A stretch of DNA of 64,000 bases from Arthrobacter sp. NicSoilB4 (GTDB lineage: Bacteria; Actinomycetota; Actinomycetes; Actinomycetales; Micrococcaceae): assembly GCF_019977335.1 (NCBI RefSeq), contig NZ_AP024653.1, forward strand, positions 62,001 to 126,000, in the 5' to 3' direction. Numbering within the stretch: position 1 is the first letter of the stretch; each line of letters begins with the position of its first letter. The notes below the pieces were generated by a model, which was given only the letters and a program-made list of their open reading frames with translations, ran no database searches and was not told the DNA's origin. The position numbers and the translations under genes were made by a program. Shown here one piece after another: positions 55,845 through 58,873 of this stretch.

Positions 55845-55916
55845 TAGACTGGGGTTCAGGTGCGCCGGGAAGTCTGGTCGGCATAGTTCTGCCGACCCAA
55901 CTTTTAGGACCCTCGC
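55845..55916 (+). ncRNA. Structured leader of nhaA, candidate cation riboswitch
   Basis: TAGACT (55845-55850) would start a leader of about 60 nt. It contains GGTGCGCCGGGAAG, then a perfect 7-bp hairpin GTCGGCA/TGCCGAC (55878-55897 region) and a purine run with TTTTAGGACC before the ATG. Structured leaders of this size before nhaA include the lithium-sensing nhaA-I and nhaA-II RNAs; the assignment is my inference. Confidence 0.4.
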
Positions 55917-57266
55917 ATGAACACCACACCTCCCCCCGGCCCCCCGCTTCTGACCATCTTTGGCCGCGGCAGCTACGCCGAATCCCTTCGGATCGGCGAG
56001 ATCCTCCGCAAGGAGACAGTCGGCGGCGCCCTGCTCGTCGCGGCAGCCCTGATCGCCCTTATCTGGGCCAACTCGCCGGTTTCCGAGAGCTACTTCGCCC
56101 TCCGGGACTTCAAGGTCGGCTACGAACCGTGGCATCTGGAACTGAGCCTGGGCGCGTGGGCGGCCGACGGGCTGCTCGCCATCTTCTTTTTCCTCGTGGG
56201 GCTCGAACTCAAGCGCGAGTTCATCGCCGGGGACCTGCGGCAGATCAACAAATCCATCGTTCCGGTGGCAGCGGCAGTGGGCGGCGTCGCCATCCCGGCG
56301 CTGATCTACACGATCGTCAACCTTGCCAGCCCGGAGACCCTGCGCGGCTGGGCCATCCCCACTGCCACAGACATCGCGTTCGCCGTTGCGGTGCTGGCCA
56401 TCATCGGCTCGCATCTGCCCAGCGCCCTCCGGATCTTCCTGCTCACCCTGGCCGTGGTTGACGACCTGATCGCCATCACCATCATCGCCGTCTTCTACAC
56501 GAGCGAACTCCACCCGATACCGCTGCTGCTGGCCCTGATTCCGCTGGCCATCTACACCTACCTGGCGCACAAATACCGGCGATTCTTCAAAATCAATGCC
56601 TCGGCCGCATGGCTGATTCTTCTGCCGCTGGGCGCCGTCACCTGGGCGCTGGTCCACGCGTCCGGCATCCACGCCACAGTGGCAGGCGTGCTGCTCGGCG
56701 TCGCCATCCCGGTCCTGCGGTCCCAGGCCAGCGGAGGCCCGGAGGCCGGCCCGGGTCTCGCGGAGGTCTTCGAGCACCGGTTCCGCCCGATCTCGGCCGG
56801 TGTGGCCGTCCCGATCTTCGCGTTCTTCTCCGCAGGTGTGGCGGTGGGCGGCTGGGAAGGGCTGGGCTCGGCGCTGACCAGTCCGGTGGCCGTCGGCATC
56901 ATCCTGGCGCTGGTCCTCGGCAAACCGATCGGCATCATGGGCACAACCTGGCTGCTCACCAAAATGACCAAGGCGCGGCTGGACACCAGCTTCAAGTGGA
57001 TCGACGTCTTCGGGGTTTCCCTGCTGGCCGGCATCGGATTCACCGTTTCGCTCCTCGTGGCAGAGCTGAGCTTCGGCCACGGCAGCGTCCACGACGACCA
57101 CGCCAAGGTGGGCATCCTCGCGGCCTCGGTGCTGGCGGCCCTGCTTGCCACAGCGGTCCTGCGGACCCGGAACCGGCAGTACCGGCAGGCCGAAGAAGAG
57201 GAGAAAGTCGACTCGGACCACGACGGGATCCCCGACGTCTACCAACAGGACGGCACCGCCGGGTAG
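55917..57266 (+). CDS. nhaA: Na+/H+ antiporter NhaA
   Basis: 449 residues with about 12 hydrophobic segments. The core shows [37 protein letters not shown], and [17 protein letters not shown] with the paired aspartates that bind Na+/Li+ and protons, then [15 protein letters not shown]. It expels sodium in exchange for protons. The cytoplasmic tail is acidic and ends in [12 protein letters not shown], which looks like a calcium-binding repeat. Confidence 0.93.
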
Positions 57267-57499: not shown

Positions 57500-58873
57500 A
57501 TGGACGTCGTCGTCATTGAGACCAGGCAACTCGGGGACCGCAGCTACCTCGTCCATGACGGCACCTCTGCGCTGGTCATCGACCCGCAACGGGACACGGA
57601 CCGCGTGGAGGAGGCCGCCCGCGACGCCGGCGTCACCATCACGCACGTCGCCGAGACCCACATCCACAACGACTACCTGACCGGCGGGCTCGAACTGGCC
57701 CGGGCGCACGGCGCGAGCTACCTCGTGAACGCCGCAGACCCGGTGACGTTCGAGCGGAAGCCGATCACGGACGGGCAGGTCGTCCAGGTCGGTGCGCTGA
57801 CGGTCAGGGCCGTCGCCACCCCGGGCCACACCCACACGCACCTGTCGTTCATCGTGGACGACGGCGAGCAGCAAGCCGTCTTCTCCGGCGGAAGCCTGCT
57901 TTACGGCTCTGTCGGCCGCACGGACCTTGTCGCCGCCGAGGACACGCCCGGCCTGGCGCATGACCAGTACGCCTCGGTGCGCCGCCTCGCCGCGGAGGCC
58001 GCGCCCGGGGCCGCGTTGTTCCCGACCCACGGGTTCGGCTCCTTCTGCTCCTCGGGTCCGGCCAGCCGCGCCGGAGGATCCACCATCGGCGAACAGCTCA
58101 CCAGCAACCACGCCCTGACGGATCCGGATGAGGACCATTTCGTCCAGGAACTCATCTCCAACCTCACGGCCTACCCCTCCTACTACGCCCACATGGGGGT
58201 CACCAACGCCGCCGGGCCCGGCCCGGCGGACCTGGCAGTGCCCGAATCGCTCGACGCCGCGGAACTTATGCGCCGGCTGGAGGGCGGCGAGTGGGTGGTG
58301 GACCTGCGCCGCCGCGTGGCCTTCGCCAGCAACCACCTGCTGGGCAGCGTGAGCTTCGAATACGGCACCAGCTTCAGCACCTACCTGGGCTGGATCCTGC
58401 CCTGGGGCGAGCAACTGACCCTCGTGGGATCCCGCGGCGACGTGGAAAAGGCCATCCGCGACCTTTCCCGGATCGGCATCGAGCGCCCGGACGCCGCCCT
58501 CGGAACGGATCCGCACGCGCTTGCACCCCGCGCCGCCCTCGCCTCCTACCCCCGTGTGGGCTGGGACGCTGTGCTCGCCGGCCGGGCTTCCGGGGACACC
58601 GTCGTCGACGTGCGGCGGGCCGACGAGTTCGCCGCCTCGCGGGTGGCCGGGGCGCTCAACATCCCGCTGCATGAGCTGCTGCGTCGGCTGGATTCCGTCC
58701 CTGCCGGGAGGCTGTGGGTGCACTGCACCAGCGGCTACCGGGCCGGGACCGCCGCGAGCCTGCTGCAGCGCGCGGGCAGGGATGTGGTCCACATCGACGC
58801 TAAATTCGACGACGCCGAACGGGCAGGAATTCCGGTGGACAACACCCCCGTGCCGGCGGGCCCGACGGCTTGA
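57500..58873 (+). CDS. MBL-fold persulfide dioxygenase with two rhodanese domains
   Basis: 457 residues. The metallo-beta-lactamase part (1-220) has THIHNDYLTGGLELA, ATPGHTHTHLSF and FPTHGFGSFC, the iron site of the ETHE1/persulfide dioxygenase group. Two rhodanese domains follow: the first (about 255-345) has no active-site cysteine, the second has it in WVHCTSGYRAGTAA. It should oxidise persulfide to sulfite and transfer sulfane sulfur. AGGAGG precedes the ATG. Confidence 0.85.
   Translation: MDVVVIETRQLGDRSYLVHDGTSALVIDPQRDTDRVEEAARDAGVTITHVAETHIHNDYLTGGLELARAHGASYLVNAADPVTFERKPITDGQVVQVGALTVRAVATPGHTHTHLSFIVDDGEQQAVFSGGSLLYGSVGRTDLVAAEDTPGLAHDQYASVRRLAAEAAPGAALFPTHGFGSFCSSGPASRAGGSTIGEQLTSNHALTDPDEDHFVQELISNLTAYPSYYAHMGVTNAAGPGPADLAVPESLDAAELMRRLEGGEWVVDLRRRVAFASNHLLGSVSFEYGTSFSTYLGWILPWGEQLTLVGSRGDVEKAIRDLSRIGIERPDAALGTDPHALAPRAALASYPRVGWDAVLAGRASGDTVVDVRRADEFAASRVAGALNIPLHELLRRLDSVPAGRLWVHCTSGYRAGTAASLLQRAGRDVVHIDAKFDDAERAGIPVDNTPVPAGPTA

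Follow-up and report, generated by a model that had tools for sequence, protein, structure and literature searches.

What RNA, if any, lies between the promoter and the start codon of nhaA in Arthrobacter sp. NicSoilB4, and what might it sense? The DNA analyzed, called the window, is a 64,000-nucleotide stretch of this genome. An earlier note had described a TAGACT promoter box, a leader of about 60 nt with a perfect GTCGGCA/TGCCGAC hairpin, and a conserved-looking block ahead of nhaA, and it had pointed out that lithium-responsive nhaA-I/II RNAs take this place in other bacteria. The order at the locus is TAGACT, 8 nt, GGTGCGCCGGGAAGTCTGGTCGGCATAGTTCTGCCGACCCAACTTTTAGGACCCTCGC, and the ATG at 55917. 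The TAGACT box is present, and its TANNNT place is kept in relatives. A consensus promoter scan of the locus returned no -35/-10 pair, and the assignment of the box therefore comes solely from this place in relatives. The leader measures about 59 nt (55858-55916) from the inferred start to the ATG, close to the length given before, and the gene behind it is indeed nhaA (TIGR00773, 323 bits against a cut-off of 254). The perfect hairpin is also there, with 8 bp where 7 bp had been noted and a 6-nt loop: GGTCGGCA (55876-55883) pairs with TGCCGACC (55890-55897). In our reading this hairpin is a competing fold and not the conserved structure, and it takes up the 3′ half of the conserved block. The predicted fold of the leader compared with shuffles has z = -2.1, which is weak when taken alone. 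The features are collected in Table 1.

Table 1. Features of the nhaA leader, in window positions.
Feature	Positions	Strand	Basis
-10 box TAGACT (TANNNT)	55845..55850	+	Sequence; TANNNT place in relatives; no -35 match
Inferred transcription start, A55858 or G55859 most likely	55857..55859	+	Inference from -10 spacing
Conserved 25-nt element GGUGC-GCCG-GGAAGUCUGGU-CGGC-A, proposed aptamer	55859..55883	+	Family and phylum counts; model R1 match
State A stem: GCCG (55864-55867) with CGGC (55879-55882), 11-nt loop	55864..55882	+	Compensatory changes at 3 of 4 pairs in relatives
State B hairpin: GGUCGGCA (55876-55883) with UGCCGACC (55890-55897); excludes state A	55876..55897	+	Fold; CGACC/GTCGACC arm enriched 3′ of element in relatives
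Shine-Dalgarno AGGA	55906..55909	+	Sequence; 7 nt 5′ of ATG
nhaA, Na+/H+ antiporter, presumably the regulated gene	55917..57266	+	TIGR00773 above cut-off

The conserved-looking block proved to be real. The block GTGNGCCGGGAAGNCTGGTCGGC, with at most 2 mismatches of 23, was found in 111 of the 149 family genomes, and the reversed-pattern control gave 0 in every row; 98 of these 111 genomes, counted by hand, carry a single copy. Across the phylum, a 19-nt pattern with at most 2 mismatches matched 123 of 396 genomes, a looser search with scattered matches of the reversed control. A stem-free pattern, which leaves the 3′ half of the stem unspecified, matched 102 of 396 genomes, and its reversed control matched in 4. 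The consensus derived for the 25-nt element (window 55859-55883) is GGHGH-GYC-GGGAAG-N-CUGGUC-GRC-R, many invariant positions in the underlying alignment, A1, being fixed by the search pattern. A covariance model, R1, built from 64 sequences including the window's own copy, scored 44.3 bits at 55859-55883 and 17.4 at the next best place. The loop (GGAAGNCUGGU in the window) and the 5′ flank hardly vary across relatives. The 122 aligned sites show little conservation 5′ of the -10 box or 3′ of the element, the most visible flank signal being a weak C preference about 15-17 nt after it. A scan of named genomes gave at least 119 stretches, nearly all from Actinomycetota and three from Chloroflexi records; the carriers among the matches listed include Streptomyces, Amycolatopsis, Mycobacterium, Arthrobacter, Agromyces, and Frankia. 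In the Pseudomonadota control (the phylum of Mesorhizobium), 3 of 200 genomes matched, one of them the centre chosen for its match, and no promoter or transporter context was found at the three places. The matches in Mesorhizobium (L187) and Eremiobacterota (L209), which lack promoter or transporter context, were rejected as chance. Viral carriage was likewise rejected: five IMG/VR entries match the 19-mer, none has the GGNG flank, and all are taken as chance.

The position of the element relative to the promoter is also kept. Among the 122 related sites, a TANNNT begins 17-19 nt 5′ of the stem in 95 cases, 62 of them at 18 nt. Because this distance is mostly fixed, the element appears to lie near the mRNA 5′ end, and its start probably coincides with the transcript 5′ end or falls within 2 nt of it. 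No TANNNT was found in the upstream window at 62 of the 254 sites with a GCC/GGC stem, and the element is therefore not simply a part of the promoter.

The existence of the state A stem was judged from the stem-free search, which is the covariation test to trust. The 100 % paired figure in A1 is partly by construction, because the 11 non-pairing matches, all without a -10 box, were excluded before covariation scoring. A1 holds 64 of 67 distinct paired elements; L187, L278 (GGC/GCC, no -10 box), and L293 (unclear context) were left out. The stem-free search returned 20 Actinomycetota matches with a 5′ half other than GCC, and all were read. Eight follow a -10 box, and all eight pair fully (GTC/GAC four times, TCC/GGA three times, GCT/AGC once). 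One of the 12 without a -10 box pairs (GGC/GCC), and none of the stems of eight chance-like Chloroflexota matches does. Compensatory changes are found at three of the four stem pairs, UA for GC once and UA for CG at two pairs; these counts lean on few events, the GTC/GAC and TCC/GGA variants being partly common to relatives. The stem covariation score of 0.127 was not reached in 500 shuffles, and controls slid along the alignment gave 0.036 or less. An alternative inner stem, CCGG/CUGG, was discarded: variants with G at A1 column 17 break it, as judged by eye. The gene behind each of the three TCC/GGA copies is a NatA/DrrA-like ABC ATPase (by eye, with families run on one). The letters flanking the stem, A1 columns 5 and 25 (window 55863 and 55883), are correlated over the 122 sites, U occurring with G, C with A, and A with A or G. 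Either a non-canonical pair beneath the stem or common ancestry may explain this correlation.

The genes behind the element were tallied at 251 distinct sites, which include a few chance-like ones (e.g. L187), the first loci being weighted to one family. Assignment was by tblastn (224 sites) with ORFs from the sites themselves as references, named via Pfam/NCBIfam on representatives only; 27 sites are unclassified, some with an nhaA or ABC gene further down. NhaA stands behind 151 of the 251 sites, Na_H_Exchanger/CPA1-type antiporters behind 21, and MrpA behind 12. These are followed by KimA-like APC permeases (8), CBS genes (6), NatA-like ABC ATPases (5), STAS-like genes (4), PEP synthase-like genes (3), and P-type cation ATPases closest to Ca2+ pumps in NCBIfam (3). 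A Na/Ca exchanger, a CRP-like gene, a DUF2254 gene, and a glycosyltransferase each occur at two sites, and a membrane pyrophosphatase, TrkH, and NfeD at one site each. The pyrophosphatase matches the NCBIfam 'sodium-translocating' type below its cut-off, on a truncated stretch of the gene. Some sites precede genes without an evident cation link (STAS, CRP-like, PEP synthase-like, DUF2254, PP2C, glycosyltransferase). Among the 149 family genomes, 105 have both the element and nhaA, 13 of the 118 nhaA-bearing genomes lack the element at 2 mismatches, 6 have the element only, and 25 have neither (Fisher p 1.3e-13, only a guide, as the table was counted by hand and the genomes are related). The 6 element-only genomes belong to one genus, and in 6/6 the element precedes mrpA (Pfam on L330, the other five by eye). 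An element before mrpA where nhaA is absent is what a sodium/proton-antiport switch predicts.

Several individual loci extend the tally. At L070 (13-1494), L037, L045, L047, and L134 the APC permease behind the element is related to KimA, a K+ importer (6s3k, E 6.5e-23, run on L070). A small CBS-domain gene stands behind the element at L155 (5956-7742), L218 (Mycobacterium sp. E787), and L233. A CitMHS/ArsB/NhaB-like transporter follows this gene at L155, and the layout resembles the Rv2683-Rv2684 neighbourhood of mycobacteria, a hint that the transporter may handle Na+. One 9.7 Mb genome (G275) has eight copies in three regions (L082, L083, L084, L085), and several precede nhaA, CPA1-type antiporter, and STAS-domain genes. 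These copies possibly form a salt-response regulon.

The element is a real, widespread leader RNA that is absent from Rfam 15, resembling alkali-cation riboswitches in anatomy and gene context and lying outside the known classes. Neither the 64-kb window nor the element at 20 related loci gave an Rfam match above the cut-off of its family. The earlier note had singled out the nhaA-I (RF03057), nhaA-II (RF03038), and Sodium (RF03071) models, and none of the three appeared at the leader even when the scan was relaxed to E = 10. What stands of the alkali-cation reading is a structured, conserved leader in the position of such riboswitches and target genes that transport cations; the proposed link to these three models fell away. 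The five matches that the permissive scan did place at the leader all belong to eukaryotic miRNA/lncRNA models, score far under the respective cut-offs, and were discarded. The 37-bit cut-off of nhaA-I was not reached, and the element has one 4-bp stem in place of the two-stem P1/P2 arrangement with a conserved P2 loop. The 40.5-bit cut-off of Sodium was not reached in the window, the leader, or the 20 related loci. No match to nhaA-II at its 70.4-bit cut-off was found in the Arthrobacter genome, and the control genomes likewise gave none. In the phylum sample, a scan with strict filters that scored no more than 50 candidates for each genome gave nhaA-I in 1 of 100 genomes and Sodium in 0 of 100. 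The single nhaA-I (Li+-I) match, L296 (G190:C1:48608-48662), is genuine at 47.1 bits.

Comparison with published RNAs places the element beside several of them. The Na+-I riboswitch (DUF1646 motif, RF03071) resides in the leaders of cation-transport genes and activates expression with Na+ (PMC9337991, PMC9646797, in the portions available). The available portion of PMC9337991 describes two extended stems, P1 and P2, and names Firmicutes, Proteobacteria, Acidobacteria, and Verrucomicrobia; actinobacteria are not among the phyla named there. The element resembles Na+-I in preceding cation-transport genes of several transporter families, but Na+-I has the extended P1 and P2 stems, occurs in none of the 100 phylum genomes, and gives no match at the element. 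The Li+-I riboswitch (nhaA-I, RF03057) is often located 5′ of nhaA and activates expression, and the Li+-II riboswitch (nhaA-II, RF03038) is also often 5′ of nhaA (both from the available portion of PMC9646797). Li+-I and the element have short GGUG and UGGUCGG strings in common as well as their frequent place before nhaA, whereas Li+-I has two long stems in a 55-position model and is found in 1 of 100 phylum genomes. Li+-II, an 84-position model without a match in the Rfam scan, is set apart by model match. In the available portion of PMC11109978, the dauA motif of Streptomyces precedes a STAS gene, forms a three-stem junction that holds the Shine-Dalgarno sequence, and is proposed to be an OFF switch. 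A few element sites (L082, L084, L223) also precede STAS genes, and an overlap with the dauA motif there is possible, dauA having been compared by its description. Searches of open-licence PubMed Central with related terms and the motif letters found no published report of the element. The sole paper found with the motif letters is, from the part available, a mouse study, and the available part of the main text of PMC8632094 mentions neither nhaA nor Streptomyces.

Evidence for a competing fold in Actinomycetota comes from the sequence downstream of the element. The strongest enriched words 3′ of 235 non-redundant sites are ribosome-site and start-codon words together with CGACC, GTCGAC, TCGACC, and GTCGACC; ATAGTT and CGAAAG are examples of others. 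GTCGACC occurs at 23 of the 235 sites compared to 2.5 expected from dinucleotide shuffles, and CGACC at 88 compared to 37-41. With G-U pairs allowed, the CGACC group is reverse-complementary to GGUCGGC in the element. Its excess is present in all three sampling groups (15/46, 24/68, and 49/117 against 3.5, 6.4, and 11.0 in single-base shuffles). Single-base shuffles also served as controls for the cost of state A, Shine-Dalgarno openness, terminators, 5′-half pairing, and the Chloroflexota hairpins. Of 231 sites, 151 allowed a ribosome site to be assigned, and at these forcing state A costs 8.9 kcal/mol compared to 4.6 with shuffled linkers. Judging from the enriched arm and the higher cost of state A, Actinomycetota leaders seem built to compete with the conserved stem. 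No enrichment of pairing to the 5′ half of the element was detected in Actinomycetota. In the window the competing fold is predicted to be 11 kcal/mol better than state A, a gap that would be much for a small ion to overcome unless folding is under kinetic control.

The output step in Actinomycetota is less clear-cut. Translational control by sequestration of the Shine-Dalgarno sequence was rejected: forcing state A changes the openness of the ribosome site by -0.03, compared to +0.02 to +0.03 with shuffled linkers. This effect in the wrong direction is small but significant (p 0.0003 and 0.003), and taken alone it would suggest that state A lowers translation. In the window, state A takes Shine-Dalgarno openness from 0.65 to 0.64, and start-codon openness drops from 0.54 to 0.16. 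U-tailed terminators are not in excess, with 4 and 7 of 246 sites compared to about 5.5 in shuffles; those at L053 and L089 look convincing individually. Early termination without a U tail, pausing, the ribosome site, or help from a protein are possible outputs. Two general hallmarks of riboswitches are thus seen, a conserved leader element with a covarying stem (its 5′ end inferred) and a downstream structure that excludes the conserved fold; a third, a conserved fold that exposes the Shine-Dalgarno sequence or a U-tailed terminator, was not found in Actinomycetota.

The Chloroflexota sites carry a different downstream structure. In this phylum, represented by a Ktedonobacteraceae record (G545), the stem-free pattern occurs at 23 places in 19 of 201 genomes, and 15 of the 23 places have the GCC/GGC stem. 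The genes behind the 15 are CPA1-type antiporters (11), NhaA (2), a CitMHS/ArsB-type transporter (L318), and a PP2C-like gene (L303, scanned as L224). At the remaining 8 places the stems are unpaired and the reference transporters unmatched. In the further Chloroflexi records L134 and L201, the element stands before a KimA-like permease and a CPA1 antiporter. At 10 of 17 Chloroflexota sites (L303, L305, L312-L317, L324, and L325), the first 10-11 nt of the element form the 5′ arm of a hairpin with 10-11 contiguous pairs, G-U counted, that excludes the stem; single-base shuffles reach this in 2 % or less. These hairpins are mostly terminator-like; in nearly all, U-runs lie at the end of the other arm or behind it. 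L312-L317 seem closely related to one another, but the arms at L305, L324, and L325 differ and match all the same, so element position 5 and the hairpin arm change together. At L311 (1500-1560) a competing hairpin uses the base and loop of the element's stem, pairing GGGAAGACUGGU with ACCAGUCUUUC 5′ of a U-rich stretch, and as folded it is a third way of excluding the stem.

The best explanation, which we hold to be somewhat better than evenly supported, is that the leader contains a very small cis-acting RNA switch, a candidate riboswitch for a monovalent cation, most likely Na+. The element is very probably a cis-regulatory RNA, and it probably senses a ligand directly; that the ligand is Na+ is close to an even call and is inferred from the genes only. 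The 25-nt element would be the candidate aptamer for the cation, most likely Na+ with Li+ possible, and would form first as the RNA emerges. Bound ligand would hold state A and block state B, so that a build-up of the cation would turn on antiporter expression. For Ktedonobacteraceae-like Chloroflexota, the terminator-like hairpin would be state B, giving an antitermination ON switch. In Actinomycetota, including the window, state B would be the hairpin of the type in Table 1, with the ON sign assumed by analogy. More tentatively, the element may be a natural Na+ aptamer of about 25 nt, among the smallest riboswitches, and a main switch for sodium homeostasis in Actinomycetota (species of Streptomyces, Mycobacterium, and Arthrobacter included) and in part of the Chloroflexota, linked to terminator-like hairpins in the latter and to a different platform in the former. 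With 25 nt and 4 bp, it would to our knowledge be smaller than any known cation riboswitch. If true, these proposals help explain salt and alkali sensing across a phylum of antibiotic producers and mycobacteria, and they offer a minimal test case for the discrimination of Na+ from K+ by RNA.

The idea that the RNA itself senses nothing, and that its hairpin is the site for an RNA-binding regulator reporting salt or alkaline stress, is unlikely. RAT antiterminator hairpins of the BglG/LicT family are small, protein-bound, and overlap a terminator. A small hairpin with an invariant loop and an arm overlapping a terminator-like hairpin is also the layout of protein-dependent antitermination, although RAT hairpins serve other genes. 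Several sites per genome, such as the eight in G275, would fit a regulon. Against the idea stand the single copy in 98 of the 111 element-bearing family genomes and the variety of genes that follow the element in two phyla. No regulator gene was noticed beside the element in a casual view of the loci. A riboswitch for a different ligand from the same physiological setting (K+, H+/pH, Li+ alone, or a stress metabolite) seems rather improbable. The KimA-like and TrkH K+ transporters, the P-type ATPases closest to Ca2+ pumps, and the genes outside cation transport speak for such a ligand, but systems linked to Na+ dominate the tally: NhaA, Mrp, CPA1, NatA-like ABC, the Na/Ca exchanger, and the 'sodium-translocating' pyrophosphatase.

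A DNA operator just 3′ of the transcription start, bound by a transcription factor, would account for the constant spacing from the -10 box at most sites, and its palindromic outer GCC/GGC would covary too. This reading is very improbable: the 11-nt core is asymmetric, the 62 sites without TANNNT upstream have no such spacing, the enriched downstream arm matches an RNA helix, and the element serves as an arm of the terminator-like hairpin in 10 of 17 Chloroflexota sites. It is scarcely credible that the element is a divergent nhaA-I, nhaA-II, or Na+-I (DUF1646) RNA. The kind of gene is alike, and the UGGUCGG and GGUG strings recur in the nhaA-I consensus, but no Rfam match appeared even at E = 10. 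The nhaA-I and Sodium models have 55 positions and nhaA-II 84, and nhaA-I has two long stems compared to the one 4-bp stem of the small cation-switch candidate described here.

The window holds the only copy of the element in its genome. On the 3′ side of nhaA (57500-58873), the ORF list shows, by eye, a metallo-beta-lactamase-fold hydrolase with rhodanese-like parts that resembles a persulfide dioxygenase.
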